64,000 nt of DNA, taken from positions 6,798,460 to 6,862,459 of the forward strand of contig NC_087083.1 in NCBI RefSeq assembly GCF_026151205.1, read 5' to 3'. The position numbers and the translations under genes were made by a program. This stretch comes from Bolinopsis microptera. Taxonomy: Eukaryota > Ctenophora > Tentaculata > Lobata > Bolinopsidae. A model generated the notes under the pieces. The model was given only the letters and a program-made list of their open reading frames with translations. It was not told the DNA's origin and ran no database searches. Positions 2,701-52,491 of the stretch are shown one piece after another; within the stretch, counting starts at the first letter, position 1, and every line of letters begins with the position of its first letter.

Positions 2701-2772
2701 CCAATCAGAGCTCAGTATCAGTGTCACGTGACAAAGCTAGATTGTCACGTGACAATCTGGCTTTGTCACGTG
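2701..2772 (+). promoter_or_regulatory. CCAAT box plus three phased E-boxes
   Basis: CCAATCAGAG at 2701 is followed by CACGTG at 2725, 2746 and 2767, each inside GTCACGTGAC or a close variant. The CCAAT-to-first-E-box offset is 24 bp and the E-boxes repeat at exactly 21 bp, two helical turns. GTCACGTGAC is also the consensus of the TFEB/MITF-type CLEAR element. A TATA-like TTTATATG lies at about 2795. This looks like an upstream promoter region, but the transcript it would drive is not identified. Confidence 0.55.
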
Positions 2773-2988
2773 ACACGTAGACTTACACGTGGGTTTATAT
2801 GCAGATTAATAGGTTTGAAGCTGAACCTGTCTCATGTGAGTGTGTGACAGCTTGAGTTCATGATGTCTCTCTTATATCCACATTACGACTCATACAGTTC
2901 CTGAATTATTCATGTCACATGACTGAATTATGTACGTCGCGTGACTGAAATACTCGCGGCTGAGATCTCCTTCGCGTGGTGATCATAT

Positions 2989-3018
2989 CACGTGATGGCC
3001 ATATAAGGGTATGATTGG
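2989..3018 (-). promoter_or_regulatory. CCAAT - CArG/TATA - E-box composite
   Basis: Read on the minus strand: CCAAT at 3018-3014, CCTTATATGG at 3008-2999, a 4-base spacer, and CACGTG at 2994-2989. The offset from CCAAT to E-box is 24 bp, as in the CCAAT/E-box modules elsewhere. The CArG-to-E-box spacer is 4 bp, as in the CArG/E-box modules. It is the only copy seen with all three sites. On the plus strand the same bases read as E-box followed by a TATA box (CATATAAGG), with TTTCAGAAT about 30 bp further on. Confidence 0.5.
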
Positions 3019-4053
3019 TGTATATTAGTTTCAGAATAGTTACTAAACACGAAGGGTTTCATAAATGTCCTGGAAGCTCATAATGGCCAATAGAGCAATA
3101 AGGAGTATATATCATTTCTGGGCAGGCCAAACATAACAAATCACATTCATAAAAAAATAGATAGATTACATATTGTGAACCTAAAACAGAACGCTAGAAC
3201 AGGATTGTAAAATATAAAATGTAGTACTGTTACACTAAAAAGTGTTGTTATACGAAGTTACGATCGACACGAATGACGAAATATTCCGAGTAACTAAAAG
3301 GCTTCACACTTCAACAAAAACATTACGGTTGTCATAAATCAAGATAAAATAATGGTCAAAGATTGAAAAAGTTAACAATTGTGAGTGGTACAGAGGGCCA
3401 TTTACTAGCACACTATTTATATCTCTTGGGACAAAGTAATCAGTAGAACCGGATAAACGTAAGAACGATCATTTGGTTGGGGTGCAACATTTATGTAGGG
3501 CGGATGATGATAATCTATAATAATGATAGTTTACAAATGCAACATTATCTTTTTCTCTTCTCATGTTATGAGATAAGAAAAGATAAAGTTTCACTTGTAC
3601 TACTATCATGTAAGAAGTTTAGAATTTTCAGCCGGTGCTACAGTTTGTAACGTAAAAAGTGCGAGAATATTGTTACTGCGTCTGACACCGTTACTAAAGG
3701 TACACGTCTTGTGTGTGACACTGTTACGGTGTCAAAACCAGCTAATTTAATATACCACTGCAATGATCTAATATGTGAGTTATTATATCACTGCACTCTG
3801 CAGTCTGCAGTGATGTGACAACTCACCCCCCCCCCCCCCCTCCTCCTCCCCCTTATAACAACACTCCCTCACAGTGGCGTAACTCACTGACTGAGTAGTG
3901 ACAGTATTACTTAATCTCTAGTGGACTACAATCATGCAAACAATCAGGTATTGGACTGTGGGTTTTAAACCACGTGTGAAAATACCATTCTATAGTGGGC
4001 TGCAAATACACGATTCTCTCAGCAGTCAGCACCAATTAAGTCTAGACGGTGAA
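3019..4053. other. Non-coding interval with a poly-C run
   Basis: No gene seen. It includes 15 consecutive C at 3826-3840 followed by CT-rich sequence. A short inverted pair reading TCTTTTTCTCTTCTCAT / ATGAGATAAGAAAAGATA lies at about 3548-3587. Remaining sequence is AT-rich background. Confidence 0.4.
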
Positions 4054-4087
4054 TTACCATGGCAACCAAGCACTCAGCGTTACAATC
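4054..4087 (+). repeat. 34-bp direct duplicate (copy 1; copy 2 at 4971-5004)
   Basis: The stretch TTACCATGGCAACC to GTTACAATC is identical at 4054-4087 and 4971-5004, about 0.9 kb apart. It starts with an X-box-like half palindrome (TTACCATGGCAAC). Flanks differ, so this is a short dispersed duplication rather than a long one. Confidence 0.75.
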
Positions 4088-4116
4088 AACTAGGTGCGGC
4101 TAATCATTTTAATTAC

Positions 4117-4339
4117 ATGACTACACATAACGTTAACTCATATCACGTGACATGACTACACATAACATTAACTCATATCACGTGACATGACTACACATAA
4201 AGTTATAACTCATATCACGTGACATGACTACACATAACGTTGACTCATATCACGTGACATGACTACACATAACGTTAACTCATATCACGTGGCATGCCTA
4301 CACATAACGTTAACTCGTATCACGTGGCATGACTACACT
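4117..4339 (+). repeat. 35-bp minisatellite carrying an E-box in each unit
   Basis: About six copies of a 35-bp unit containing GACTACACATAACGTTAACT followed by CATATCACGTGACAT. CACGTG is kept in every copy although other positions vary (for example AACATT for AACGTT, and GGCATG at the last units). The array follows a single-copy CATGGCAACC stretch shared with 4971-5004. Confidence 0.8.
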
Positions 4340-5004
4340 ATCATGGTTATTTGCCTGATCGTCAACAGACAATTAATTGGTTGGCGGTTGCTCGGCCGTG
4401 TCTTTCACTGATTAAACTCTCTATACATTAATGCTTATTCAACTGGGGCGGGTTCATTAACTTTATTACCCAAGTAAAAATGGGAGAGTTTTGTGAATTC
4501 AACAATCAGACGCATCAAAAATGAAAAGAAAAGAAGGAATAATGGAAGTAACAATTTGACGGATGATAAAATGGTTCATAAGATATAACATTCCAATTAG
4601 GTTCCTTAAATTTGTTGTTAGTTTTGGAATCAATTAAATCCCGCCGTAATGGGGTAGCATTATCCGTGACCGGGGAGCTGGCTACGTCTACTGTTCATTG
4701 GGTTTCGTAGAATGAGCATTAGAAGACACAGTATAGTTTCAAAAGAAAAAGACAGCAATGTTAAAGTTCAAGATTCAGGATATAATTTGTTTGAACATAT
4801 TTCTTAGACTCACTTGTACGTTTTTGTAATCGAGCACGGCTCAGACTGTGAATATACAGTAATAAAAATCAGACAGTTTCGAGCAGCTGAATATTAACAT
4901 ATACCCGGTAGAACTTTGACCAAACTCGAACAATCCTGAAGTATTTGTGCATTCATTTTATTCTTGTTCGTTACCATGGCAACCAAGCACTCAGCGTTAC
5001 AATC

Positions 5005-6460
5005 GACTCTGTTCATGACACTAACGCCCACTTTTCACTAACGCCCACTTTCCCTCTACCAGTGCATTTGGCGTGGTACAAAACTTCATTTGACATTAAT
5101 GTGAGCGCTGTCATGATTGGTTTGAGAGAAAACGGTGAACACTGTTCAGGACAGTGAAAATTTTAATGAGTATCATGACTTTATTAAGTATTATTGAACT
5201 ATTGTAAGACGCATAGTATAGTGGGTAGGATATTGGGTTTAAGGAGAATTAATTTAAGGATCAACGAGTTGTTTGAATCTTTTAGATTTGTTCTAGCATA
5301 ATTAGCTTATCTAAATGTTAGTACAGAATGAAGAATTGGGTAAATTGATATCGTATTTTAGAGCTGTGTGCTGCCTATTTAAATTTATTGTTAAGTTAAA
5401 CCAGAATTCAAGATATTAATTTCTTTGAATAAAATGTCTGTTTGTTCTCCTTAACTGCTTGGCATATTTAGTCCTCATTGTTATAAGATTCACTACACAG
5501 TCAAAATTGCATGATAAATGAAAGGTAGTCATACTCGTTGTTGTGAAATTGCTTTCTATCTTTCAATTGTGATAAAAGGGACCGTGTCTCAATCTACAAG
5601 ACTATGCTAAACAGTGAATAATAACTTAAACTTAATTATAATAGTGTTACTAATAGTAGTCTGCAATATGCACAGGAGCAACTTGACCAATGGTTATTTA
5701 ACCTGCCCAAACGGTGCCAGAAAGTTGTAGCTTTACAAATTGTTTACGATAATATTTAAAATCCGTTTTTGCGTTCGTAACAACTAATAATTTATACACA
5801 GACCGGTAGCAGCAGCCACTAGTAACAACTAATAATTTTTCACACGTTTGACGGTGAGAAAGTGTTTTTGTCTGTCGTAATACGGTTTATTTTCACACTC
5901 ACAACCTTTCCTTTTTTTGCTGTATAATATATGATGTAAGCCATCATTAGGTTTTCTCTCTGATTTTCTTTCTGATTTCATTGTGCTGCTTTACATCTTT
6001 AAAAATTATATTACATTCCCTCTCAAGCCTGGACCCACTTAATTGAAACTAATCAAGATTCATTAGATTATATTAGAAACAATGTATAGTAGTTTTTATT
6101 GAGCCATTCGCCTATACGTAGCAAACACTTGCTATAAAGTTATTTACAAGTATAAAAACCGAGCACACACAATGTTTCATTTTAAGAAGGAAGCTGGAGG
6201 CTACTATGCAACTTTTTGTGTATGAACTAAGATTTCGAGAAATTAAATTTAATAAATCGACAAATTTTCATTTAAACCAATTTTAGCAACAATTTTATAG
6301 GACATTAAAACTATTCCATTGTTCAAGAAAGCACGAGGGATAATATGGGGCAGTATCCAGATAGCCCGACCCCTGTTCGCGAACAGGTGTTCGTGAACGA
6401 TTTATGACATGATGGTTATCAAATCATATGACTGCATAATAACAGTACACAGACTTGCTT
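5005..6460. other. Non-coding interval
   Basis: No exon with protein-like composition and splice sites was found. AT-rich. It includes a duplicated AACAACTAATAATTT phrase near 5780-5840 and an inverted pair TTCGCGAACAGGTGTTCG at about 6377. Confidence 0.4.
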
Positions 6461-6511
6461 CAAGGGGTTCACATCATCGCAAGCAATGCTTGCGATGATG
6501 TGAACCCCTTG
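6461..6511. repeat. Perfect 25-bp-arm palindrome
   Basis: The arm CAAGGGGTTCACATCATCGC continues for 5 more bases. It is followed by one A and then the exact reverse complement up to 6511. A third partial copy of the arm (GGGTTCACATCATCG) follows at about 6527-6542. The structure could extrude as a cruciform or fold as an RNA hairpin. Confidence 0.85.
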
Positions 6512-6542
6512 ACACTGAATCAAGCAGGGTTCACATCATCGT

Positions 6543-7142
6543 TCACATTATCGCACGCGAATTTCAATCAACGGTGTAAAGGCATTCTTTAAGGAGGCCG
6601 AGGGTCCATTAATACCGTATAGTAGACAGAAGAGTACCATGTCAGGAATTGGAATAGTTGTTGTTGTTGATGATGGCAACTGATAATACTCCACCAAAAG
6701 CGAACGACCTATATACCACATTTAAATCGTAATCATTTATTTCATTGAGCAATATACTATTACTACGCTACAATCAATGCTATTCGTAACCAATTATATC
6801 CGAGGGACCACATTTGAATCGTTATCAATGCCTAATATGGTGACTTGGACTATTGTGTACTCAAGTAAGTAAGTAGATTAAGATTAGTGCTGCAATTAAC
6901 GTGGATTGGACTATCAATTCAAAGAACGAAATAGCTTTAAAGAATCTATAGATAGTTTTGGAGGATCAGATAGCCAAATTTAACAAAAGGCTAAAAATAT
7001 AACTACAAGCAAAGAGCTGCAGTCTGCAGTCTGTTACCATGACTCTACTGCTAGTTTCCATAGAAGCATAGAAAACAGTCTGCAGTCCTATTGAGTACAC
7101 GGAAGGAGCTATGTAGTCCTTTACAAAAGATATCTTTAGCTC
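6543..7142. other. Non-coding interval
   Basis: No gene seen. CTGCAGTCTGCAGTC-type direct repeats occur around 7018-7090. The minus-strand open frame at 6966-7166 is not protein-like. Confidence 0.35.
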
Positions 7143-7456
7143 TACAAGTATACAACTATAGCACAATATTTTTAGCTCTACAAGGCTACAACTAGCACAA
7201 TATCTTTAGCTTTACAAGGCTACAACAAGTTCAATATCTTTAGCTTTACAAGGCTACAACTAGCACAATATCTTTAGCTATACAAGGCCACAACTAGTTC
7301 AATATCTTTAGCTTTACAAGGCTACAACTAGCACAATATCTTTAGCTCTACAAGGCTACAACTAGCACAATATCTTAAGCTATACAAGGCTACAACTAGT
7401 TCAATTTCTTTAGCTCTACAAGGCTACAACTAGCACAATATCTTAAGCTATACAAC
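7143..7456 (+). repeat. About 34-bp minisatellite
   Basis: About nine units of TTTAGCTCTACAAGGCTACA followed by ACTAGCACAATATC. Two main variants alternate (TAGCACAA and TAGTTCAA). Some units have TATACAAGG for CTACAAGG. Confidence 0.8.
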
Positions 7457-7780
7457 TCATACTGCTTGGACATTAAATCCACATTATGTTGCATTATGTT
7501 GACCAGTAACAGCTATTACCATTGGTTCGTATTCACTCAAAGACTTTAGAAATGTGCTGCATAATGCACATGAAAAAAAGCTTTTTACACGTTAATCCGG
7601 CCTAAATCCGACTTACATCCCGTAAATTCAGTTTTTTGTTTAAATAAATTCAACTATAAAATGCTAGTAAAACATCAAAAATGAGACACAAAATAAATTT
7701 TGTAAATGGATCTCATCCCCGAGAATAAAATCAAGCAATAGGAGCACATTAAGATAACAAATCGTTCACCATCGATCTTA

Positions 7781-7866
7781 GTTAACGATGATACTCGTAA
7801 CATATTTGTTTAAAATATTAAACGAGTCCAACTCGGCGCGCGTCTTGGTAGGTTATAAACCTACAA
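7781..7866 (-). mobile_element. Hairpin element, copy A (8-bp target duplication)
   Basis: An 86-bp copy of a short dispersed element. It is bounded by the direct repeat CGATCTTA (7773-7780 and 7867-7874), a clear 8-bp target-site duplication. One end carries the internal palindrome TAGGTTATAAACCTA. The middle has ACGAGTCCAACTCGGCGCGC and the other end has GATACTCGTAA. The two ends are not inverted repeats of each other. This copy has lost the GTCGAC core seen in the other three. Confidence 0.75.
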
Positions 7867-7874
7867 CGATCTTA

Positions 7875-9168
7875 GTGGCCATCCGCTCTGATGTTCATCT
7901 AACAACCCTAAATATGTTACAACTGATAGTAGGAGTGACAACCCTTGTAAAAATTACAACTGAGGTGTAACGCGGAAACGTCTCACAAAACACGTGCAGT
8001 TCTCTCATGAATCATCTGAGCAAGTGAGGCACTAGTGTGTAAGTGTGTGTCACACTGTCACAATATCATTTCATTGAGTTTGCTCTAAAGAGCATCGCGG
8101 AGTATGTTTTCCTTAAACTTACAACTTCTCAAGTCTTCTTATCCGGCATAATTTCCATAGATACCAGGATAGTTTCCGTAAATACCAGGATAGTTCCCGT
8201 GGAAATCAGAAAGCCGACAAATCAGTTAGTGGGAAAATAAGCCGCTCAAGTCCTCCCTTTCATCTTTATAAGAGTTATTGTTCTTCACCTAATCATCTCT
8301 ATAAGAGTTACTGTTCTTCGCCTACTTATCTTTATAAGAATTATTGTTCTTCACCTACTAACTTCTATAAGTGTTATTATAAGTGTTATTCCTCTTTAAT
8401 TGCCTATCCTAATTTCACTCTATCTGAATTAACAATAACATCCGAAGCCTTAAAGATTCGGATAAACTGGAATTGACTAATACTCGCACTCAACCTGCTA
8501 CTAGACTTACTCGCAAGAAATATAACGTTTACTGATAATTTACAGTCGTTCCATTGCATTTTATCCCTCGACACGACTACCCTTATAACAAAAGCTTAAA
8601 ATTACGGAGCAGACGTGTTGAAAAATGAAAGCTTTATAACATTTCTTGCCATAAATATATCTGTCCAATCGTCCAACGGTCATCTAATTCTATAACGAAT
8701 GAATTTTATCAACAGATTAAAATTACAATGCCAACCCAGTAATAAGTTATAAAAATATTGGAGCATATGATTGGAGATTCAGTTAGTTATACTTAAAGCA
8801 TAGGTTGAAACATCCACGATACCGGAACATTTACAACCATTAGGAAGCCTCGGCAACTATTCTACTGCAAGATTTACAACCCGCCAGGAAAACTTCTTTC
8901 AGTAACTAAAGAGTTGCGATCAGGAATGTTGCAAAAAAAAGTTATCTATCTTTTTTGCAGCAGAATGTGCAACAAATTAGTTTAACTCCTTATTAATTAT
9001 TTTCTGTGATTTCTCTCATGGTTTAGTTTTTCAAACAGTTTCGCTCAATTTTTGTGTTTTACTCCATATCGAACATGTTACGTTATAAATTCGCATTTCT
9101 TTCATTTATAACTCATTTTAATAGATCCCCTGCAGTTTTTTGCTCTATCAGTATGATTAATGGCCAGG
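7875..9168. other. Non-coding interval with short tandem repeats
   Basis: No gene recognised. Between about 8258 and 8395 there are four copies of a roughly 33-bp unit built on CTTTATAAGAGTTATTGTTC. At 8155-8205 there are three copies of ATACCAGGATAGTTTCCGT-type sequence. The rest is AT-rich. Confidence 0.45.
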
Positions 9169-9254
9169 TTGTAGGTTTATAACCTACCAAGACGCGCGCC
9201 GAGTTGGACTCGTCGACGGTCTTATTTAAAACAAATATTTTACGAGTATCACCC
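9169..9254 (+). mobile_element. Hairpin element, copy B
   Basis: Inverted relative to copy A: it begins TTGTAGGTTTATAACCTACC, continues through CGCGCGCCGAGTTGGACTCG and GTCGACGGTC, and ends TTTTACGAGTATCACCC. GCCAGG flanks both sides (9163-9168 and 9255-9260); a longer 7-8 bp duplication with one mismatch is possible. No coding capacity. Confidence 0.75.
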
Positions 9255-9726
9255 GCCAGGTCAAATTAACCTTTGTTTTATTAACTTTTGATTTATTAAT
9301 TACATACATTAATAAATTTATGTAGATTCTTGATTTACTTGTTTTACTTTTAGTTAATTAGTTTATTGTCAAGAAGTTAAATTATAATGACATTCTTCAT
9401 TATGATTAACAATCTACTTATTTTAAAAACTGTTTTACGTATAACTATATAATGAAAACAGGCGTGTTAACATTAATTTTCCTATTCGACTTTAGTTTAA
9501 TTCCTGTTTAATTCCTGGTTCATTGCTGTCGCGATTTACTAATGTTTTTTTAATGTTAGTTAAATCTGCTTTACTCTTTTTTATATTCATGTTCTTAATC
9601 TTATATTTTTGTTTTTATATTGACCACTGCATCTTCATAAGATGTAGCAGCCTAGTATGAAGGTGTGATGATCTTATTTTCAGTTTCGTTAAAAGAACAC
9701 TTCCTTTAACATGGTTATTATTCATA
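9255..9726. other. Very AT-rich non-coding interval
   Basis: No gene or array. Dominated by TTTAATT and TTAATTA words. Confidence 0.4.
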
Positions 9727-9983
9727 TTTGAATTATTTTTGTATGTTTTTTTAATTATTTCTGTATGTTTTTAATCATTTCTGTATGTTTTTTAATTATT
9801 TCTGTATGTTTTTTAATTATTTCTGTATGTTTTTTAATTATTTCTGTATGTTTTTTAATTATTTCTGTATGTTTTTTTAATTATTTCTGTAAGTTTTTTA
9901 ATTATTTCTGTATGTTTTTTAATTATTTCTGTATGTTTTTTTAATTATTTCTGTATGTTTTTTAATTATTTCTGTATGTTATG
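9727..9983 (+). repeat. 22-23 bp AT-rich minisatellite
   Basis: About eleven units of TTTTTTAATTATTTCTGTAT followed by GT, varying only in T-run length by one or two bases. Confidence 0.85.
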
Positions 9984-11368
9984 ACGAGGTCTTACAGCGA
10001 GTGTTATGTATGTTTTCCCCACATAATGAAGCTCGAATGTTGCTGATTGTTAGTCAGCGTGTCACTGTTATAGTCAGACAGTGAGATAGTTATTGATACC
10101 ATTGGTACATTATTTACGACAGTAGTTCAGCCCATACAGCTACTTTGTTAGTTACACAGTCTGTGTACAGTGAGTAGAACATGTGTGTTTTCATCACTCA
10201 GTCTTATTTACAGTTACTATAATATATCTCAGTCTTAATTACTTTCCTTACAGTAAATAAGTCTTCAGGAATTCATTGCACCACGGAAGTAATCTTAGTA
10301 AGTTATAGTACTCTTAATAAGTTATAGTAACCTTAGTAAGTTATAGTAATATTTAGTGTGTTGAACTAATAACGTCGAGTGATATTTTTCTGGAAAATCC
10401 TCAAAACCACGTTAATAATCCTTATTTTAGACGTGATCACATCTTTACATGTGCAGGTATAATTAAGATACACACAGCTGCTCCTTTATAAAGATTACCA
10501 GTCTGTTAATGGCCCCTCTGCACTGTATATTGTCATGGCGGCGTCTGATTACCATGGCAACTGATTACCGTGTTTTATCACTAGTTAACCTGACTACGTG
10601 GTCCCGTATAATTAGTGTAAACTAGGTGTGAGCCGGCTGTTTATCTCACGGGTTTTCTGGTATCTCAATAATAGATTTGTTGGAAGTTGTAGTAGTTGCT
10701 GGTAGTAGGCTATCGGTAACGCTGTGTGATCTCTTATTAGTGGGTATTAAACAGTAAACACCGTTTTATTATTTAACAGAGCGCTTTTTTTTGTTTTGTA
10801 GTTAACAAACTTGCGGGGAGAATAAACATGACTGTATTAGTTATCTTGAAAGATGTTGTTTGAACACACATATGACGAACATATCGTTTTTTTATTTTGA
10901 GACTTCAGTTTGCTAATCCTTAGAGTTTAACGAGGGTGGGAAGTTATTAAAGTCTAGAACTAGAAATATTTGCACTTTTCTTTACATGTGCTTTCGTAGC
11001 TTTACAACTTAACTTTGCAGTAAGTATCTAGAGGACAGATATTTTGAATAAGCTGAACGATTACCAGTTTTGCGGTAGCCGAAACATTTGAATTGTTATT
11101 TAATGGCTGCGCACTGCTAATTTTTATATTATAATTGCAACATTGATTGCAGCTAGTGTTAGGCTGCTCACTGCTCAGAGAGATTTACTTTTAAAATCAC
11201 TTGAAGTTTTCTCTTAAGTTTTAACACATAATAGTAATACCAAAGGCTGAGATCTTATGTCCGCTGAGAGAGATTAGTGCTCGAACACAAAATTACTGAC
11301 GACTCTATAAAGACACTGCTCCCCACTGTTTAACTAAACACACTTGCAAGGCACTGCTGTACTACTAC
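9984..11368. other. Non-coding interval
   Basis: No gene recognised. It contains short TAAGTTATAGTA direct repeats at about 10297-10350. X-box-like GATTACCATGGCAACTGATT lies at about 10549. The rest is AT-rich. Confidence 0.4.
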
Positions 11369-11481
11369 TACCATATAAAGTAATGTTACCATAGTAACAC
11401 TACCATATAAGGTAATGTTACCATAGTAACACTACCATATAAGGTAATGTTACCATAGTAACACTACCATATAAGGTAATG
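11369..11481 (+). repeat. 32-bp repeat with CArG and X-box motifs
   Basis: Three and a half copies of a 32-bp unit holding CCATATAAGG (a CArG box, CC(A/T)6GG) and GTTACCATAGTAAC (inverted repeat GTTAC-CATA-GTAAC, matching the RFX X-box pattern GTNRCC-AT-RGYAAC). The first unit has CCATATAAAG. Motif matches are seen; binding is not shown. Confidence 0.75.
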
Positions 11482-12492: not shown

Positions 12493-12692
12493 ATACCCAC
12501 TACTACTGTAACAGGTACCCACTACTACTGTAACAGGTACCCACTACTACTGTAACAGGTACCCACTACTACTGTAACAGGTACCCACTACTACTGTAAC
12601 AGGTACCCACTACTACTGTAACAGGTACCCACTACTACTGTAACAGGTACCCACTACTACTGTAACAGGTACCCACTACTACTGTAACAGGT
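12493..12692 (+). repeat. 22-bp minisatellite
   Basis: About nine near-identical units of GTACCCACTACTACTGTAAC followed by AG. Homogeneous, so probably recently expanded. Confidence 0.9.
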
Positions 12693-12802
12693 AGGGAGTT
12701 GAGATGGGGCAAGGATGGGGTTGATAAGTTGATATGAGGCAGTGGGGTTGATAAGGGGTAAGGGGTAGGGGGGGGGGTAGGGGGGGGGGTAGGGGGGGGG
12801 TT
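12693..12802 (+). repeat. G-run tract with G-quadruplex potential
   Basis: Directly after the 22-bp array, G-rich phrases (GGGGTAAGGGGTA) lead into three runs of nine G separated by TA (about 12768-12800). Four or more G-tracts with one- to three-base loops satisfy the usual G-quadruplex pattern on the plus strand. Confidence 0.7.
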
Positions 12803-12970
12803 ATCGCCATCTAATTTTTCGGACTTCACAATTCTTGACCAGAAACATTATAAAACGTAAAATAACTAAGAAACTATTATCAAAAGCGAACTAACAAGAG
12901 TGTTAATAAACATATACAAGTTAATAATATCTATAGACACGTATCCTTTAAAAATATAAACGTCTCCACA

Positions 12971-13121
12971 GTTACCATAGTAACACGTTATCATAGTAAC
13001 AACGTCTCCACAGTTACCATAGTAACAAGTTACCATAGTAAAAAGTTACCATAGTAAAAAGTTACCATAGTAACAAGTTAACATAGTAACAAGTTACCAT
13101 AGTAACAAGTTACCAAGTAAC
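12971..13121. promoter_or_regulatory. Array of about nine X-box-like palindromes
   Basis: GTTACCATAGTAAC and close variants (GTTATCATAGTAAC, GTTAACATAGTAAC, GTTACCATAGTAAA, GTTACCAAGTAAC) recur roughly every 16 bp from 12971. The last copy ends one base before the ATG at 13122. The motif is an imperfect inverted repeat that fits the RFX X-box consensus. RFX factors commonly drive ciliary genes; linking this array to such a role is inference. It may equally be a neutral minisatellite. Confidence 0.55.
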
Positions 13122-13275
13122 ATGAACATATCTGCAGCACCCCCAGAACCGGACTTGTCCCGGATACACAGCGGGTTGATGACGCAGATACGAGTTGCTA
13201 ACGGGTCTGCAGTCAGATCACCCTTACTTCACAAACGATACAAAAACTTTGACGGAATTTCTGGAAAAGACGACA
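13122..13275 (+). CDS. Probable first coding exon of an unidentified gene
   Basis: ATG 13122 opens a 51-codon frame (starting MNISAAPPEPDLSRIHSGLM) that ends at a strong 5' splice site, A^GTAAGTAT, at 13275/13276 in phase 1. The encoded segment is polar, with Pro at the N terminus and several Arg/Lys, and no recognisable domain. It lies immediately after the X-box-like array, which may be its promoter or 5' leader. I could not identify the next exon: the candidate at 16705-16793 does not match the phase directly. Could be a chance open frame next to a chance donor. Confidence 0.4.
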
Positions 13276-23544: not shown

Positions 23545-24514
23545 GAAACAGCAGTAAAAATAAACTGCAGGCGTAAGGCGTTCCCGCGCTCACCGAGCTA
23601 ACGTGATAAGCTGACCAATCAAGTAATGTTCCCCCTGTCATGTGACGGTAGACCTACCAATCACACGTGCGCACGACTGGCGTCCTGCTAATCTTATGTT
23701 ATGATTTCTTATCTAATAGGAGATTAAGTTTAACTGTTCATTGAAATAAAGGTGCTACTGATTATATGACTGGGCAAGGAAACTCTGTTCTACCGCGTAC
23801 AACCCTAGGAGGCTGCCTGATGAGGCTGCCTGATGTATTTGAACCACCATTATTAATATTCCACGGTCCATCAATTTGCCACCTCAGGTATTTTAACTAA
23901 TTTTATCGAACTGGAAACACTTATCTGGTGACTTTGTAACTATCGCTAAAATAATTCACAAGTTCCTTTCTTGTTTGACAGTAAACTAGGGGTCTCTATT
24001 TCGCGTTGGAATAATAACCAAACAACACACTCTTAAGTCTTAACTTTAGAACATAAGATAAAATATTACATCACAATTATTTCATGGCATCATATAGCTG
24101 AGTATAATGAAATAATACAATTCAAAAGCTTATTTAATATGAGGGCTATGAAAAGGAGCAAATCCATTATATCGGAAACAGATGCACGAAAATAAGTTAA
24201 TATTAATAAAGGCAAATATAAGTTTTGGTTGCTCCCCAATGAGTATCTATCTGTTACTGAACGCTTACAAATCTAGTTGCTTATTTATCATTCTAAATAC
24301 ATACTAATTTACATCCACACTTGTTTTATAACTGCAGACTTTAAAATCACATATCATATCACTATCACGTGACTTTAAAATCACATATCATGTCAGTGTC
24401 AAACTCAAACTGATTGTTAACCTGTATGGTATTCAATATGAAGCTATTATGACATTTTTCAGTTTTATAGTAACAACTTAAATACTACATCCTCCCCTCT
24501 CAGTCGACCAAAAG
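23545..24514. other. Non-coding interval with one CCAAT/E-box module
   Basis: No exon recognised. The regulatory module is at 23615-23644. A duplicated ATCACATATCAT phrase lies around 24350-24392. It ends at the 3' UTR of the neurogranin-like gene. Confidence 0.4.
23615..23644 (+). promoter_or_regulatory. CCAAT - E-box module (24-bp offset)
   Basis: CCAATCAAG at 23615 and CATGTG at 23639 (TGTCATGTGAC), start-to-start 24 bp. A second CCAATCACACGTG follows at 23656. Confidence 0.5.
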
Positions 24515-30850: not shown

Positions 30851-32574
30851 GTGCCAATCAACTGCTGTCAACAAATCTTATAACCAAATAAAACCATACT
30901 TTTCTCTACTCGTGACGTCTCCCAGGCCAATCATGATGACACTTTATTAAATAATAAGCTATGCCTATAGTAAAACGGCGAGTTGTAAAGCTATAAAAAG
31001 AACTAACTGACAATTTGAACTGACATTGACATCAAGATCCAGCAAATACTGAAAATTACTGTAAAATTGATGAAATGCTGCACATTCCTTACTTTCCTGT
31101 GTGCAGAGACATTTGTACGTAAAATAAAAAGGTTTTTAAAAAAGACTTTAGATACACGTACATAAATGTCTCTGTCCACCACAAGTATTTCTGCCGGCCC
31201 TGCGGTTGACGTTACGTCGGGTACAGATCTTTAAATCCTATGAAATTAAATTAAATAGCCGCTTCTTAATATGTTGACACAGTGTGACAGTGACATCAGA
31301 CATTTCACAACACTACAACAGTGACAAGTTGTAATCAGCAGGTAATATCAAGGTTTATACCACTAGTTACCATAGTTACACTACTAGTTACCATAGTTAC
31401 ACTACTAGTGTAGTTACTACTACAAAGTGGCGGATTTATGAATGGCTTAAAAACGATTCTCATCAAAAAATATGTGATCCAATAATGAAGATGAGCTTTG
31501 ATAAATGTTATAACACTAATCTAGCACAGTAAATATCCTATTAGCACATCACTATTGTTACCAGTTACTATGGTGACCAGTTACCATAGTAATTGTGGTT
31601 ACTATAGTTTCTGTACACTCTCTTCGAACTGATTGACAAGAAACGAAAAGCAACTGAAAAGCAAAAGTGGCACAATGATACATTACCTTAACATAATATG
31701 TGATTAAGCTGCTGGAGACGAACAGAAGAAAAAAACCGGACCAAAATTCGACCTTGTGTTCCTAAATATCGCACACAAAACTTTGAGGTGTAGCTGTAAT
31801 AACTAGTAAATTCTGGAACTTAAAACAGCTCTTAACTTTTTTGACCTCTCGGTTCCTTAATTTAGAAAAACCTGATCTCGAGGTTACTGTTTACTTTTAT
31901 ACCTATAGGTGGTAACTTAGACAATTATCTAGGAGAGTGGTGTAGTGATTTAAGTGCCACGTATACTAGAGCGGGTAAAGAACAGTAAAATGTTAAAGTC
32001 AGGATGAGACTGACTTCGTGGATTTTAGGTATGTACGTGCTTTATTCGGTTAGTTTCCATGACAATCAACACTCCTCATAATAGAACTCTATACAATGTA
32101 CATCAGCTGAATTAGTTAAAAGTTGCGGGAGCTCTGTAATTATTGTCTGAATTAACTTACAATAGAGTAAATGTTGAATACAATGTTCCAATCTGGTTAA
32201 TGTAGAGTTTGAAAATTTTTAACTATCACTGTAGACTGTAGAGTCTTTGTTTGAGAATCTTTATCTTTGAGTGATTTAATTGGAGATTAAACGAAGATAA
32301 ACAGATTTGAAAAGCAAAAACTATAAATATTCCGAAACTTTTAGCGTTAAACAGAAAAGCTGGCGTTTACTGATGAAACATAACCTTATTTGGGCATCAC
32401 GTGTCACATATACTACAGCGTTTACTGATGAGAACTAACAGCACTCCCGTAAAGACACAGAACTTTCCTCCGCTACAAGTTATACTTAAAGTCCTCCTCT
32501 ATAATAACCACACACTAGCTATCAAATTAATCACAGTTTGAGGGGTCACAGGTCAGTGATAGAGCTCTTCTCCA
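30851..32574. other. Non-coding interval
   Basis: No gene. X-box-like GTTACCATAGTTACACTACT repeats lie at about 31367-31410 and a CArG/E-box module at 32384. The rest is AT-rich. Confidence 0.4.
32384..32403 (+). promoter_or_regulatory. CArG - E-box module
   Basis: CCTTATTTGG, spacer GCAT, CACGTG, next to a repeated GCGTTTACTGATGA phrase. Confidence 0.5.
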
Positions 32575-39476: not shown

Positions 39477-39518
<42 letters not shown>

Positions 39519-42088: not shown

Positions 42089-42090
42089 CT

Positions 42091-43918: not shown

Positions 43919-44109
43919 TAATACAAAATTTAAATGATCGATAGTCGCAAATTCAGGTATATCTTGCAGCAGCTAATCTCGATCATTATAATCCAGTCTT
44001 GAATCTTGATATTAGCTTCACAAACAAAAACCTAAATTAACGAGAATGAAAGTCGAAATTAAACATAAACTAGTTGATACTGTTAACCTTTACCTTGCAA
44101 TGATGACTA

Positions 44110-44995: not shown

Positions 44996-44997
44996 TA

Positions 44998-45954
44998 CAT
45001 AAGTAAAACTAAAATGATTCGGGGGTATCTCGGTATCTGCCTGCATATCTAAAAGCAGTTACAGTCCTCATTAACTTTAAGATCTTGTGTTCTCTTACCA
45101 CGGGTAAAGTTTAATACTTGCCAGTAATTCTTATCAGTACCGCAACTATACACTACCTATAATCAATAATTGGACGCTGGAACTTGGAAGCCCTAGCGTT
45201 CATTTTAATGCCAGTTCAAATAAAGTCTGCCCGTTCAAATATTTTCCCAAAAGTATTCCACGATGATGTGCTATTGTTAGACCTTAGAGTTTGATCCGAG
45301 TGTTTATTCAGCTGGACATTCCTTCTGGAATCTGGAGGGCTAAACCGCACGCTGTGTAAATCAAGATTATATCGATTGACGATATATAAATAAGCGCCTT
45401 GAGGGAGCGAATCAGAGAGCGCGCAGCATGTCACGTGATAACAGACTGACCAATTGAACGAGGCCTAGCGCATGTAGCGAAGCGCGTTTGAGGCCGTTTT
45501 CTGTTATCAGTTTGCAGTTACATACGCACATTGTTTCAGTATACATTCTTGTTTAAATCGTTATAGCTGCACGGAACGTGGTGTTACTATCTTGATATGA
45601 AGGTCGTTGAATCATCAGTGTTAGGTATGTTCTGGGTCAAACCTTTCAATTTGTTGGCTCTCAAAGTCAAATATGTTTTTGTTTGCAGATTAAATTCGCC
45701 CCGTGTTTAATTGTGCAAACTACACGATAAATCGTGCCAAATCCTTTAAAATTGATGTGATTTTTAATTTTCAGAATTTCAGAGGTACTTCGTAAAAATG
45801 TATTTGCCTCCACTTATAAACATGGACGTATTTTATGAAATCTGATTTTATTTTTATCTGATATGATTCAGCTGCTTCAACTACCTTCAAGCGGAAAACA
45901 TGATCAAGTTTTTCGGCAACTCGTATTTTAGTGCATATGTTGCTTCATAAGCTA
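44998..45954. other. Spacer between TIR elements
   Basis: No gene. A worn piece of the 22330-type MITE lies at about 45170-45245 (GGAAGCCCTAGCGTTCATTT, TAATGCCAGTTCAAATAAAG). At 45428-45520 there is TCACGTGATAACAGACTGAC with a facing CTGTTATCAG. Confidence 0.45.
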
Positions 45955-46751
45955 CCTTAATTCCCAAAAATTTGGGCGACAAAAAATTTGAGCGGGCCTC
46001 TCGCTCAAATTTTTTGCAGACCAAATTAATTGCGTAAATCTTTTCCGTCTGCTAAATTTGTTGCTAACCAAACTTTTGGTATTTGGCCTGTGGCCCTGAA
46101 ATCTATAAAAAGATGGCTTTTTCTTCATATCCAAGTGAAATAATATTTGAAATTTTAGTTTTCTAATCTGTCATTCATGGCTTGACCAATTAAAAAGGCT
46201 TATATTTTAAATGAATAGAAATTACTGGAATAGCTAACAGCTACTAATAAAACAAATGGCTAGAGGTACGGATAGCTAGAGATTTAAACAAGATCTGCAA
46301 ATGGATTATCATCCACCGTAAAGTCTGATCTACAAGCATCAGTTATACCCGACTTCTCAAAGCCTTTCCTTATGTCATCTGGTCTCCCTTTTAAATATAC
46401 TATCTGATTGAGAGACTAAATATCACTATTGTATATCTATCATTTTGTACTGTGCCATCATCACTGTATTTTTTAGTAGTTACTGGGCAGATCGTAAATT
46501 TTATAATGTGATACAACTCAGACTACCACCTACATGCTTAAAATTGAAAGCAAAATGACTGGAATAATAAGGAATAATAATGAACTAAGGCAAATATCTA
46601 ACTGAAATTTTAGTGGAAAATCGTTCATTTTTCGAAGAATTTGTGCCCAAATTTTTGGTCGCCCAAATGAGTTCAAATTTTTTGCCCAAATTTTTCGGGC
46701 TCAAATAAATTGTGCTCAATTTAATGGCACACAAATTTTTGGGAACTAAGG
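45955..46751. mobile_element. TIR element 3 (797 bp)
   Basis: Left end CCTTAATTCCCAAAAATTTG; right end reversed CCTTAGTTCCCAAAAATTTG. TA lies on both sides (45953-45954, 46752-46753). Subterminal AAATTTGAGC/GCTCAAATTT repeats. No open frame of note. Confidence 0.75.
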
Positions 46752-46810
46752 TATGTACCCTATGTAAATATTATAGTCATTGCGAACATTTTGCACAATT
46801 CTGGTTTTAT

Positions 46811-48000
46811 ATTACGGGTATATGCCTCACAGAATGGCCAAAAAAAGGAAGGTCTCTCAAAATCACAAAACACACTTTATTCCAGTTTTTATCTCATAAG
46901 AAGCTAAGTTGACACTCATATTTTTCTTCCCGGGGGTTCATTTAATCTCATAACCATTTTTTCTTTGAGAAAAATTGGCCGGAAAATCTTCCTCCAAAAA
47001 AACATGCCTCACAGAATGGCCAAATCTGAATTTCTATAATTTTTTGATAGAGATACTTTTTAAATTTCTATCACCACACGTTGTTAGAAAACCTATTAAG
47101 GAATGGGGTAATAACCTAAAACTCACGAAAAAACTGAGCTGTGAAAAATTATTTCACAAAAAAGAAAAAATGCCTCACAAAATGGCAACAAAAAAAAAAC
47201 GAGAAAATTTTATTTTTCTAAAACCTTTGGCTCTTGTTTCAGGCATGCTGCTGGTATTAATATGCCTTGTTAACACCCCCATATAGGTGAAATTTCTTAT
47301 AACTGAATAAAAAGGGCATAATTTCCTACACCAAAAATGGCCATTTTGTGTGGCGTTGTTCATATTCCCTGATTTCATGATTTATAACCTTCATTCGGCT
47401 GTAAAAACACTCCATCTGGGGTGTTATTGTATGATAAATAGCTTGTGATTACTTTAGACTTATTGTTTCATTGAATAAAAGGAGTTTTAAATTTTGGCCA
47501 TTTTGTGAGGCATATTTTGGCCATTTTGTGAGGCGTTTAGCCATTTTAGCATTTTTTTTTCTTCCTATATTGAACAATGTTCGTTTTGTTTGATGAATAC
47601 TATTCTTTAAACATCTTCTGTCATACTGGTGCCAGAAGTTCTCACCAAAATGCAAACTTAGTTCAAAAATTTGAAAACAAATTTTGTGAGGCATATTTTG
47701 GCCATTTTGTGAGGCGTGTAGCCATTTTAGCATTTTTTTCTTCCTATATTGAACAATGTTCGTTTTGTTTGATGAATACTATTCTTTAAACATCTTCTGT
47801 CATACTGGTGCCAGAAGTTCTCACCAAAATGTAAACTTAGTTCAAAAATTTGAAAACAAATTTTCAGTGCTCAAAATTTCTTTTGTTTCATATGGTATCC
47901 ACAAAACCTACCAGTCTTATATAAAAAATTAGTTACAAAAACATTTACAAATTTGGCCATTCTGTGAGGCTAGCCATTCTGTGAGGCATTTACCCGTAAT
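46811..48000. mobile_element. TIR element 4 (1.19 kb)
   Basis: Left end ATTACGGGTATATGCCTCAC AGAATGGCC; right end reversed ATTACGGGTAAATGCCTCAC AGAATGGC. TAT borders both sides (46808-46810, 48001-48003), consistent with a 3-bp duplication as in PIF/Harbinger-type elements, but the assignment is tentative. The terminal core GCCTCACAGAATGGCC (or GCCTCACAAAATGGCC) recurs about nine times inside in both orientations. A segment of about 185 bp is duplicated in tandem at about 47495-47870. Confidence 0.7.
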
Positions 48001-48677
48001 TATGCTTATTGTTATTATCCCTAACTATAATTATAAACTTAAAAATAAGATGTAGCTGCATAAATATTTCAATTATGGGAAGCTAAGCATTGATTGGTTT
48101 GATCTCAATTAGATTCCCAGGTTTGACCTCAATTCTGTATATTCTTATCGGTAATTGTCATCAGCGCACAACTAACTGGAAACTTACTCTCCAGTTGTTT
48201 ATGTCAAACTGTCGGCGTATGTCTGTTTGTAAAAAGTGAGATAAAGAAATAAAGATAAGGTCCTCTCAAGTTATTATACAGGTAATTAAGGTTTTGAAGT
48301 TGATTTTAAATAATTTCAAAATATTTTTAATTTTACAATCCCCCAATTTATTCTTTTCAGTTTTTGCTTACCTAAACTTTAATTTTCGATTAGTCTGCTA
48401 AGCTTTCATAATTCTTATACTGATTAACACAAGGGGACCCTTAGATAACCTTATCGAACATAATTTTAAACAGAAATTAAAATGAACGCTCAAAGGTATT
48501 CAAAGCCATTATAAATCCAACATTTTTTCATATTTTTGAGCGTTTTAAAAATAATTAACCAGAGACCACCTGTCTGGTTTAAGTGTTGTTTAATTACACG
48601 CTGTAAGGCTATTTTACTACATATGGTCTCCAGTAGGGGAGTCCAACCAACTTATGTAGACATGTAGTAATAGAAAC
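48001..48677. other. Spacer between TIR elements
   Basis: No gene. A solo end of the 22330-type family lies at about 48439-48500 (ACCTTATCGAACATAATTTT, AATTAAAATGAACGCTCAAA). Confidence 0.4.
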
Positions 48678-49320
48678 CAAGGTCAAAAGGAAATCGCAGC
48701 ACGTGCGGAATCGCGATTTTTCCCATTCTCCGCGAAAAATCGCGATTTTTGACGTTTGCCTTCCGAATGTATAAGTACGGACTTTAGAAGACCGAAAAAT
48801 ATTTTCAGCTCATAATGATCAGGGTAGCATGAAACATGAACAAAAGTAGTTTCCAGAAAAACTTTGAAAAAATTTCGACTTAGAAAATGTTCGGTCCGAG
48901 TCATTCTCGATAAGTACTTCGATGGCAGAGCTCCTGCTTCCGAGCTCGTATTGCAAAGGGGTTAAGCCTGCTTTCCAAGATCGCATTATAATTATACGTA
49001 TGTGATGTAAAATGTGTTAGGCATATAATAATAATATATAATAATAATAAGGTTCGTTAGCACTTAGCAGGTAAACTATTCAGTGAGATTTGGGACAATG
49101 ATCTGAGAACATTGACCTTAAGACAATTAATCTACATTATAACTTTATAACATACCTTTGCGAACACAATATGGACAAAAACTCATGAGGGTAAAGGAAA
49201 TATTTCTACGAACATAGTGATAGTGAAAAACTTATACAAAGGATGCCACAATGCTGAGAACATGCCGCCACCTCTAAGTCGCTTTTTGGCCTAAATAATC
49301 GCGATTTTCTTTTGTCCTTG
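48678..49320. mobile_element. hAT-like non-autonomous element (643 bp)
   Basis: Left end CAAGGTCAAAAGGAAATCGC; right end reversed CAAGGACAAAAGAAAATCGC. It is flanked by ATAGAAAC (48670-48677) and ATATAAAC (49321-49328), an 8-bp duplication with one mismatch. Short TIRs starting CA and an 8-bp duplication are hAT hallmarks. Subterminal CGCGATTTT repeats. No long open frame. Confidence 0.7.
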
Positions 49321-49406
49321 ATATAAACTAACAATTAATTTTAACATTCAAGGTTACGTGGATTCGAAAAAAATATGACAACCCTTTGAAATTGATGAAA
49401 CTTTTA

Positions 49407-49482
49407 AGTGGCTTAGTGGCTTAGACGGTCGATGAACCTATTGTCTAGCTGCGAAGTTGTGAGTTCGAACCCCGGTCGAGCT
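49407..49482 (+). mobile_element. tRNA-like SINE head
   Basis: Box A-like TGGCTTAGTGGCTTAGACGG and box B-like GAGTTCGAACCCCGG are correctly spaced for a Pol III promoter. The acceptor stem does not pair, so this is not a tRNA gene. A body of unknown length follows (to about 49600) without a clear A-tail. Confidence 0.5.
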
Positions 49483-49730
49483 TGAATCTTGCAGCTAAAG
49501 TACACCCGTCACTTACCACACTTACTTACACTACCATACTTACAACAGCTGTGTCTCACCAATAAACCAGGTTTTGTAATAGATTCCTGTGAGTGTGAGA
49601 ACAACCACTTAACTAGCTAGTTTCCTTGTAAACCCTTTAAGTAACATGGACAGTCTTAATTCGAGCAATTTCCCCTACAAGTAATGCTTTCAGCACCACG
49701 TACTAGTGTTGTTCATTCTGTACAGTAATC

Positions 49731-49757
49731 CGGGGGGGGGGGGGGGGAGGGGGGGTA
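49731..49757 (+). repeat. Poly-G tract
   Basis: A run of about 16 G, then A, then seven G. It can form G-quadruplex and is a likely assembly-length uncertainty. Confidence 0.8.
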
Positions 49758-49827
49758 CACTACACTTTTTTATCTCGTCAAAATGTTAATTGAGCTTAAA
49801 CACGTATGTTTTTACTTTACCACGTGT

Positions 49828-50204
49828 AATGTAATGTTAGCACTCACTTTACAACGTGTAATATAATGTTAGCGCTCACTTTACCACGTGTAATGTAATG
49901 TTAGCACTCACTTTACCACGTGTAATGTAATGTTAGCGCTCACTTTACCACGTGTAATGTAATATTAGCACTCACTTTACCACGTGTAATATCAGCACTC
50001 ACTTTACCACGTGTAATGTAATGTTAGCACTCACTTTACCACGTGTAATATAATGTTAGCACTCACTTTACCACGTGTAATGTTACCACTCACTTTACCA
50101 CGTGTAATGTTAGCACTCACTTTACCACGTGTAATGTTAGCACTCACTTTACCACGTGTAATGTTAGCACTCACTTTACCACGTGTAATGTTAGCACTCA
50201 CTTT
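49828..50204 (+). repeat. 27/32-bp minisatellite with an E-box in each unit
   Basis: About thirteen units of CACTTTACCACGTGTAATGT with AATGTTAGCACT or TAGCACT. The two lengths differ by one extra GTAAT. CACGTG is kept in nearly all units (one has AACGTG). The open frames across it are by-products. Confidence 0.85.
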
Positions 50205-50374
50205 GAAAGTCAGCCCTCTTCGCCACATGAGCAATGTTTATGATTGGTTTCTGATGAAACCCTTTCTTTCTCTGATACGTTTTTGAGTTGGAGCGAGTCT
50301 GCCATATCGTGTACATCTGCTTCATACCAGCAGGGGGAGTCCGTCCGTCCGGCAGGGAGGGAAGGTTCGGCCTA

Positions 50375-50404
50375 CCAATCAGAGAGCAGTATTTCAGTCA
50401 CGTG
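50375..50404 (+). promoter_or_regulatory. CCAAT - E-box module (24-bp offset)
   Basis: CCAATCAGAGAGCAGT at 50375, then ATTTCAGT, and CACGTG at 50399. It is followed by ACACAAAG. This is the copy closest to the unit of the satellite at 62.9-63.7 kb (four differences over the first 26 bases). Confidence 0.6.
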
Positions 50405-50415
50405 ACACAAAGTAG

Positions 50416-50445
50416 CCGATCAGAGAGCAGTTCTCTGGTCACATG
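50416..50445 (+). promoter_or_regulatory. CCAAT - E-box module, variant
   Basis: CCGATCAGAGAGCAGT at 50416 and CACATG at 50440, offset 24 bp, 41 bp after the previous module. Two further ACACGTGGGCA sites follow at about 50447 and 50467. A tandem duplicate of the preceding module. Confidence 0.5.
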
Positions 50446-50467
50446 ACACGTGGGCAAAGTCACATGA

Positions 50468-51292
50468 CACGTGGGCACAAGGTAGAGAAGAAAAGAACAC
50501 CCGCATGATAGAAGGCAGGTATTGAAGAGTGATAGAAGATATGTTAATGATTGGTGTACAGGGTGATGATTGCAAAGTTACAGGGGCTAATAGCAAAATA
50601 TAGAAACCCTTATTATGTGCCCTTACTCGCGTGTAACAAGCTTAACATTGTGCTATAGTTATGATAAGGAGGAGGAGGAAAAGGGCCAAAGTAGGAGAAG
50701 GAGGAGGGGTGGGATATAGAAACCCGTAATATAAGAATATATGCCCCTCACTCGCGTGTACTGTGTAGCTAGCTGTTTAGTTATTAAGGGGCCGGAGGTA
50801 GAGAAGGAAGAGGTGGAGTATGAGGGGTGGCTGAGGAGGGCTTGGGAGATGAAGGGCCGGAAAATGGAGCCGTAGGAGGTCAGGAGGCGCAGAGTGGTGA
50901 TGAGACTCCTTTCACAAATAACACTGAATACAGAGACTAACTGCAAAACACCATTGACAATATCCCTAGCGAGACAATCACTTGCTACACAGATGGTCAC
51001 GCGCAGACTTAGGAAGAGGGCTGGTTATATCATCACCACTGACAATAATAGTACTACTCTACAGAAAACATCCTGACTATAGCTCTGTTTATTGCACCCG
51101 AGGAACTGGATCAGACCGGAGTAACCGAATGCTTATTCTATGGTTATTATCCTAACGAAATTCGGGCATTTATTAATTCTTCCTCATTCCACTTGCTACT
51201 TTACCTCCCTCATCTTCACATAGATTTCCCCGACATATTTTTCCTATAGGGTTGCCCCAGAGGCAAGCATAGCATCTTGGGTCCTTGTTACT
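50468..51292. other. Non-coding interval with a weak open frame
   Basis: A partly duplicated segment (ATATAGAAACCC then CACTCGCGTGTA) lies at 50600-50760. From 50780 to 51076 both strands have open frames of 60-110 codons; the minus frame (50659-51000) is longest. Neither has a convincing start, splice site or domain, so I do not call a gene. The two preceding CCAAT/E-box modules could be its promoter. Confidence 0.35.
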
Positions 51293-51972
51293 AGGCACTA
51301 ACTCACTACAGGATACAATATAACACGTACTAACTCACTACAGGATACAATATAACACGTACTAACTCACTACAGGAAACAGTATAACACGTACTGACTC
51401 ACTACAGGATACAATATAACTCGTACTAAATCACTACAGGATACAATATAACACGTACTAACTCACTACAGGATACAATATAACACGTACTAACTCACTA
51501 CAGGATACAATATAACACGTACTAACTCACTACAGGATACAATATAACACGTACTAACTCACTACAGGATACAATATAACACGTACTAACTCACTACAGG
51601 ATACAATATAACACGTACTAAATCACTACACGATACAATATAACACGTACTAACTCACTACAGGATACAATATAACAAGAACTAAATCACTACAGGATAC
51701 AATATAACACGTACTAAATCACTACAGGATACAATATAACACGTACTAACTCACTACAGGATACAATATAACACGTACTAACTCACTACAGGATACAATA
51801 TAACACGTACTAACTCACTACAGGATACAATATAACACGTACTAACTCACTACAGGATACAATATAACACGTACTACCTCACTACAGGATACAATATAAC
51901 ACGTACTAAATCACTACAGGATACAATATAACACGTACTAAATCACTACAGGATACAATATAACACGTTCTA
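51293..51972 (+). repeat. 32-bp minisatellite
   Basis: About 21 units of ACTAACTCACTACAGGATAC followed by AATATAACACGT, highly homogeneous. Confidence 0.9.
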
Positions 51973-52423
51973 ACGCACTACAGAGGCACGCAGAGCATCT
52001 TCATGGTACCATAGTTACCATAGTAGTTATCTCATTGTGGGTCAACTAGATCCTTGTAACTAGGTCCCCTGTAAAATAATGAAAAATAAGAGTGGTCAGA
52101 GGAGGAAGGGGTTGCGAAAAATCTGCATTTCTTGTTTTTTCAACTTTTAATTTGAAAAGAATACCTGAGATATACCGGAACAGTTATATTAAGTTTAATA
52201 ACACAACATTCAACATCATGAAAGCATGTCTTTTACACTCCAACTCTTCAACACGATGTATAAACAATAAATCTAGCTTACTCAATCTCTTGATTATGAT
52301 GTAAACTTAAACAATAGCTTTAACAATAACTTTAGTGTACAAATAAAGTCGGCCATCTCGTCTCAAACACCCCATTAACCCCACTGTCCTCTGTGAGATA
52401 TTAGCAAGCACAACCTCCATCAC
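51973..52423. other. Intergenic interval
   Basis: X-box-like ACCATAGTTACCATAGTAGT near 52009. The open frame at 52092-52304 is not protein-like. Confidence 0.35.
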
Positions 52424-52453
52424 CCCATCAGAACGCAGTATTTGAACCACGTG
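52424..52453 (+). promoter_or_regulatory. CCAAT-like - E-box module of the lectin gene
   Basis: CCCATCAGAACGCAGTATTT at 52424 and CACGTG at 52448, offset 24 bp; 206 bp upstream of the lectin ATG. Confidence 0.55.
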
Positions 52454-52461
52454 ACTCAAAG

Positions 52462-52491
52462 CCAATCACAACTAAATATTCGAAGCACGTG
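52462..52491 (+). promoter_or_regulatory. CCAAT - E-box module of the lectin gene
   Basis: CCAATCACAAC at 52462 and CACGTG at 52486, offset 24 bp; 168 bp upstream of the lectin ATG. Two modules 38 bp apart immediately upstream of a complete gene are the best evidence that the module is promoter-proximal. Confidence 0.6.

Follow-up and report, generated by a model that had tools for sequence, protein, structure and literature searches.

A CCAAT box and an E-box at a locked spacing, in part shared with human cells, across the genome of the ctenophore Bolinopsis microptera

The stretch of DNA described here is 64,000 nucleotides long (the window, positions 6,798,460 to 6,862,459 of contig NC_087083.1 in the RefSeq assembly GCF_026151205.1 of Bolinopsis microptera) and contains, along with a C-type lectin reading frame (52630..53667, + strand; Pfam PF00059, E 1e-05), seven copies of a two-part element in which a CCAAT box or a close variant is followed by an E-box (CACGTG, CATGTG or CACATG) 24 base pairs (bp) away from start to start. 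A sequence-only reading had reported these seven pairs, and when the letters were re-read every one of them was found where it had been placed and at that spacing. The first, a CCAATCAGAG-to-CACGTG element on the + strand (2701..2730), has its E-box at 2725 followed by others at 2746 and 2767 in 21-bp steps; the second (2989..3018) runs from CCAATCA to CACGTG on the - strand; and the third, on the + strand (23615..23644), joins CCAATCA to CATGTG and is accompanied by a second CCAATCA at 23657 that directly adjoins a CACGTG at 23664. A CCAATCAGAG-to-CACGTG element (50375..50404, +) and a CCGATCAGAG-to-CACATG element (50416..50445, +) make up a 41-bp pair, the E-box at 50399 standing 17 bp before the CC(G)AT at 50416. 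The last two, CCCATCAGAA-to-CACGTG (52424..52453, +) and CCAATCACAA-to-CACGTG (52462..52491, +), begin 38 bp apart on the strand of the lectin frame, whose ATG follows after 206 and 168 bp, as the reading had also stated. Variant letters are CCGAT at 50416, CCCAT at 52424, CATGTG at 23639 and CACATG at 50440. Since the copies at 50375/50416 resemble each other closely, as do those at 52424/52462 (local near-duplication; 68-82% over 38 nt against the copy at 50375), the seven copies correspond to about five independent loci.

Within the window, exact CCAAT and CACGTG occur 24 bp apart in four copies, against 0.12 expected per distance, and when CCNATCA and the three E-box forms are allowed the count is seven pairs against 0.06, with 24 bp the sole distance up to 200 bp that exceeds two pairs. 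The window lies above the genome average in such pairs, as 200 kb drawn from 20 arbitrary genome places contained no CCAATCA with an E-box (CACGTG, CATGTG, CACATG or CATATG) 1-39 bp downstream. The 21-bp E-box steps, equivalent to two helical turns, are seen again at 50438 and 50459, and at 62862-63752 a 30-bp unit with CCAATCAGAG is repeated in tandem some 30 times, which makes a CCAAT array at approximately three helical turns.

The whole genome (264.65 Mb, 232 contigs) was scanned with distances taken from start to start and the reversed pattern as control; the match counts are lower bounds for repeats, and statistics on spacing, spacers and clusters were derived from the first 100 matches listed, hand-copied and from contigs C1 and C2. 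CCAATCA followed by CACGTG at exactly 24 bp (CCAATCAN{17}CACGTG) gave 1880 matches (937+943), compared with 3 in the control and a chance expectation of about 14 per distance, the latter calculated from the 27 CCAATCA and 156 CACGTG occurrences counted on 400 kb of strand (200 kb at 20 places), with the CACGTG count inflated by a tandem array. The relaxed pattern CCAATCAN{2,32}CACGTG had 2986 matches against 154, leaving 1106 for the 30 distances other than 24 bp together, or about 37 each. When the listed matches were reduced to one per 1-kb cluster (n=69, contig C1), 29 were at 24 bp, 11 at 23 bp and at most 2 at each other distance, so that the distribution of distances, far from being flat, peaks sharply at 24 and then at 23 bp. 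Bases beyond the two cores are also conserved, namely GA at positions 8-9 after CCAATCA (among the 24-bp cluster representatives, G at +8 in 20/29 and A at +9 in 22/29) and RT preceding CACGTG, and the pattern CCAATCAGAGN{10,20}TCACGTGA had 158 genome matches with 0 in the reversed control. The flanks of the CCAAT box in the 24-bp elements listed are of the NF-Y type (CCAATCAG); NF-Y has a preference for CAG.

The 24-bp rule proposed in the sequence-only reading was real as a peak and yet only one half of the arrangement, for the E-box is equally frequent on the other side of the CCAAT box. CACGTG precedes CCAATCA by exactly 17 bp in 1949 genome matches (control 1), while CACGTGN{2,32}CCAATCA has 4607 against 149; a distance of 17 bp accounted for 37 of 100 matches listed and one of 16 bp for 18, and by spacer family (n=49) the figures were 14 and 6. 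The two halves combine into a unit of 41 bp, plus or minus 1, in the form CCAAT-24-E-box-17-CCAAT. The joined pattern CCAATN{19}CACGTGN{0,30}CCAAT had 1474 genome matches and 3 in the control, with a length of 46 in 76 of the 100 listed, 47 in 16, 45 in 3 and 48-64 in 5; when these were grouped into 52 clusters of 1 kb, with 53 entries, 48 entries had lengths of 45-47. Tandem 41-bp arrays occur at C1:12028576, C2:10945048, C2:10991166 and C2:22904538. A further CCAAT often lies upstream of the 24-bp element (CCAATN{10,40}CCAATCAN{17}CACGTG, 926 matches, control 0): among the 47 matches left after a manual reduction of the 100 listed, it was 29-32 bp away in 18, 41 bp in 12 and at other distances in 7, with 21 bp in another 10 that were mostly similar sequences, and 11 of 26 sampled loci had a second same-strand CCAAT 29-32 bp upstream. 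Pairs of CCAATCA, counted per cluster (58 clusters, first 100 matches listed), were 30-31 bp apart in 24 and 41-42 bp apart in 13, with up to 3 at each remaining distance; only the histogram was used, as the reversed control (10622 vs 3463 matches) was unusable, the reversed word being commoner than the motif. At the 13 C1 loci with CCAATCA pairs at 41/42 bp, 6 were also listed with CACGTG at +24 and 7 were not.

A comparison with published systems, based on the accessible portions of the papers cited, places these distances next to known ones in human cells. There, USF1/2 and MITF sites lie 10-12 bp 5′ of CCAAT, whereas MYC has no fixed distance (PMC7793273), and the ctenophore element has the same motifs in the same orientation with a gap of 11 bp, and also of 10 (1949 matches at gap 11, control 1). 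Most human NF-YB/USF1 peaks are at 17 or 18 bp (PMC7046753). Human CCAAT direct repeats are 31 bp apart, then 41, 52 and 63, with NF-Y contacts from -7 to +17 (PMC4982600), and the ctenophore pairs likewise repeat in the same direction, 31 and 41 bp apart, with steps of 10-11 bp. Compared in this way, the 17-bp half and the 31/41-bp CCAAT pairs match human rules. The ctenophore differs in having an equally frequent 3′ E-box that starts 24 bp after the start of CCAAT (a gap of 19 bp, and also of 18), and in placing an E-box between CCAATs 41 bp apart, for which no human rule was found in the accessible text; human tandem CCAAT is linked to FOS recruitment (PMC4982600), whereas the ctenophore 41-bp pairs in part hold CACGTG at +24. 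The human HOXB7 promoter, whose USF2 and NFYA motifs are spaced by 21 bp where 9 or 10 bp is found elsewhere, may represent the 3′ arrangement (the side is not given); in the same work USF2 silencing decreased three USF2-NFYA targets (PMC5223348). The mouse Miwi promoter requires both a CCAAT box and an E-box, bound by NF-Y and USF, but was rejected as a match in spacing, since CCAAT at -97 and E2 at -82 are 15 bp apart from start to start and differ from 24/17 (PMC3355075). Promoters of Amphimedon, an early-branching animal, are enriched for a G-box-like E-box near transcription starts (PMC4773876); CCAAT does not occur in the text of that paper, and no spacing rule was seen in its accessible part. 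NF-Y is absent from the text of the GEM spacing paper (PMC3415389) and CCAAT from that of a ribosome-biogenesis E-box paper (PMC2570694), and homotypic clustering of NFYB is described, with no USF in the accessible part, in PMC4082612.

A separate 2021 study on the USF1 USR domain and NF-Y reportedly describes a 10/12-bp alignment.

Bolinopsis encodes NF-YA and a USF-like protein. The NF-YA domain (PF02045) was detected at three loci, C7:5786332, C11:8466648 and C4:10257949 (best E 5.9e-24), in a search that covered the NF-YA subunit of NF-Y. The C7 copy, which lacks the intron present in the other two, is likely to be a retrocopy derived from the C11 gene; a strict element at C4:10254858 lies about 3.1 kb upstream of the C4 exon on the same strand, a possible case of self-regulation. 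A frame for a USF-like basic helix-loop-helix leucine zipper (bHLH-zip) protein lies at C7:4445589, matched by a USF-fragment query with E 1.8e-15 and 44% over 103 amino acids.

We consider it probable, at roughly 0.7, that the pairs are composite sites for NF-Y and a USF-type bHLH-zip dimer, with a spacing set by the packing of the proteins on DNA. NF-Y would occupy CCAATCAG and the dimer RTCACGTGAC. Measured from the first C of CCAAT, an E-box at +24 or -17 would begin or end 6 or 4 bp outside the published NF-Y footprint, and the E-box centres at +26.5 and -14.5 would be symmetric about +6, within 1 bp of the footprint centre at +5, so that on either side the dimer would be centred 20.5 bp, or about two helical turns, away. 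With two NF-Ys 41 bp (four turns) apart, the linker left free would be the 16 bp from 18 to 33, centred at 25.5, close to the E-box centre at 26.5. On the strength of the observed spacings and the published footprint, one dimer would thus be predicted to sit midway between two NF-Ys, two turns from each, as a sandwich lying along a single face of the helix; the tandem 41-bp arrays would be this sandwich repeated, and the 30-31-bp NF-Y pairs would be too tight for an intervening E-box. Such a module would most likely serve as an activating element close to the promoter, with cooperative recruitment of the two factors, and it is from sequence that we infer occupancy by NF-Y and USF, their cooperativity and activation, and a general location in promoters.

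The geometry could be right and the E-box factor still be something other than USF, such as MITF/TFE, MAX or another bHLH-zip protein, perhaps depending on the gene. In human cells MITF sites are spaced from CCAAT just as USF sites are (PMC7793273), and the protein search with the USF fragment returned four matches rather than one. The best of the four, however, retains NLLLRNQLQNHGIEP at the end of its zipper, similar to the query, and the strong bHLH partners of NF-Y in the published human data are USF1/2, so that we regard another factor as rather unlikely.

More tentative, and held at somewhat short of even odds, is the idea that animal promoters carry the NF-Y/USF-type arrangement as an ancestral two-turn ladder, in which NF-Y and a USF-type dimer can alternate every ~20.5 bp on a single face of the DNA. 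The ladder would then go back to the last ancestor that ctenophores share with other animals. Between two NF-Ys spaced by 41 bp, the linker would hold a single bHLH-zip dimer; the ctenophore would have kept the ladder in full (the 1474 joined matches, arrays included), amplifying it into 41-bp arrays and also inside repeat families, and human would have retained the 5′ half along with the 31/41-bp NF-Y pairs.

As for the genes near the element, a domain-family scan covered six frames from 4 of 13 two-kb loci and four frames from three other loci. Aside from the lectin, a homeobox gene is preceded on its coding strand by an element of the 23-bp form, 313 bp away from the first methionine in an upstream open frame (a putative start); its homeodomain was matched with E 6.3e-12 and a SIX N-terminal domain with E 0.0018, below the Pfam cut-off. 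At C9:1547484-1559009 (L062) five copies of the element follow one another in 2.8-2.9-kb steps with a homeodomain gene in the first unit, and the stretch is probably a tandem homeobox array. Two divergent elements lie at Sec24, and the one that shares its strand is some 440 bp upstream of the frame with the Sec23/Sec24 trunk match. The proposal of a promoter code was therefore borne out to the extent of upstream copies at a few genes, and a general promoter location goes beyond them.

Several observations weigh against NF-Y/USF composite sites with a packing-set distance. The own-strand upstream position is a thin basis, with three recognisable genes (lectin, homeobox and Sec24) for it and one, a C2H2 gene, having the element on the opposite strand. 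Human data also speak against a plain promoter reading: promoter clusters of NF-Y and of USF have been termed almost mutually exclusive (PMC6238301), the sites shared by NF-Y and USF include human endogenous retrovirus (HERV) repeats, for the most part in inactive chromatin (PMC7793273), and LTR12 likewise has CCAATs spaced by 41 bp (PMC4982600). The accessible human NF-Y/USF literature, supplements excluded, states no rule for the 24-bp half. The spacer has a preference for C, C and G at positions 11, 13 and 15 that the two factors alone do not explain. Furthermore, the list of 100 matches for the 17-bp half is dominated by a few families, and in that for the 24-bp half 39 of 100 copies fell in near-identical spacer clusters (repeats and arrays). 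The other 61 spacers had no relative within 3 of 17 mismatches, compared with 99.6 singletons after the columns were shuffled, and therefore the repeat component, or relatedness among spacers, is real.

This relatedness is the starting point for the alternative of shared descent, by which an old short repeat or a 41-bp minisatellite unit was dispersed and the spacing was inherited rather than selected. In its favour, 41-bp arrays exist on both C1 and C2 (those listed above), part of the spacers follow a common consensus, one repeat family contains the entire unit in paired opposite orientations, arrays of the element flank a reverse-transcriptase frame in L063 on both sides, and human NF-Y/USF sites are themselves partly within long terminal repeats (PMC7793273). 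The flanks argue otherwise. When 28 loci were compared with 150 bp on each side (8 from the strict pattern and 20 picked for distinct spacers, a selection that gives no estimate of the repeat fraction), only the duplicated locus L005/L006/L007 aligned well past the element, the remaining flank matches being 35-57 bp long, i.e., the element plus up to about 20 bp adjoining. In addition, of 52 spacers taken by hand from the 100 listed, 36 were 10-15 mismatches from the array consensus (random, 12.7) and 16 nearer, with the spacing still at 24/23; the 17-bp spacing occurs, among the matches listed, in 14 spacer families of which 10 are singletons; and the 17-bp half is also present in human NF-Y/USF. 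Spacers that drift while the spacing is kept point to a constraint on distance. A single transposon family for the whole set was accordingly rejected on the non-alignable flanks of the loci sampled and the diverse spacers, and is kept for part of the copies, and shared descent as the source of the spacing is distinctly unlikely in our estimation. The preference expressed in the sequence-only reading, for constant spacing over recent copying, holds with respect to the diverse spacers and sampled flanks and has to be qualified for the many copies in repeats or 41-bp arrays. The data support a constraint on distance rather than recent copying of one element, and the element is a real, genome-wide, spacing-locked composite that has been partly dispersed by repeats.

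Some of those repeats have features of mobile elements. Near-identical CCAAT-24-E-box-18-CCAAT copies in opposite orientation, 0.5-1.3 kb apart, resemble the terminal inverted repeats of a DNA transposon carrying the module (inverted unit pairs at C1:13370222/13371559, C1:20772418/20773303, C1:20844159/20844668 and C2:14519713/14520598), and the arrays around the reverse-transcriptase open frame in L063 (7-2218), which have a 41-bp step, are perhaps promoter monomers of a retroelement.

That CCAATCA is read by a TALE homeodomain protein instead of NF-Y is very improbable: its reverse, TGATTGG, resembles PBX sites and the PBX2 motif overlaps CCAAT in human data (PMC7046753), but the CCAAT-CCAAT spacings follow the human NF-Y series of 31/41, and CCAAT with other 3′ bases is also found in 41-bp units among the matches listed. 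Chance in an E-box-rich window, where CACGTG does count 106 times when the two strands are added (53 sites) and tandem repeats with E-boxes are present, can be dismissed given the sharp distance peak and 1880 matches genome-wide where about 14 were expected.

Other observations were made in the window and genome. On the - strand of the window, a non-LTR retrotransposon in which both an endonuclease and a reverse-transcriptase domain were matched lies at 56477-60746, and a GDSL-like frame upstream scored below the Pfam cut-off. Palindromes like GTTACCATAGTAAC are repeated at 12959-13122, 11367-11481 and 31355-31409, and are similar to RFX X-boxes. A photoprotein query gave 55 genome matches in tandem arrays, one of them identical at 155/174 positions to mnemiopsin 1 and at 156/174 to berovin, which marks the genome as that of a ctenophore and not of a mammal; arrays with steps of about 1 kb are found at C13:11082451-11094340, C5:17012730-17026401, C1:21999412-22006929 and C3:3415490-3427363. 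A silicatein-like query returned 146 papain-family-like protease matches (best 46%), many of them with a single long open frame, which were tentatively read as cathepsin-like proteases; a sponge origin was rejected.

As to novelty, a rigid geometry had been put forward as new, and this is so in one part: fixed NF-Y/USF spacing has been published in human (PMC7793273), whereas neither the 24-bp half as a rule nor the 41-bp sandwich was found in the accessible text of the literature searched, subscription papers and supplements aside. These two features are precise predictions that can be tested in human and other genomes, and the more than a thousand natural copies in the ctenophore would allow cooperativity and spacing to be measured.

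The spacing of transcription factors is often taken to be loose and quick to evolve. If that of NF-Y and USF agrees between ctenophore and human to within ~1 bp, the geometry of the proteins would set the rules, and these would be among the oldest that can still be read in animal gene control. That part of the spacing in Bolinopsis is shared with human cells hints at such a very old rule.

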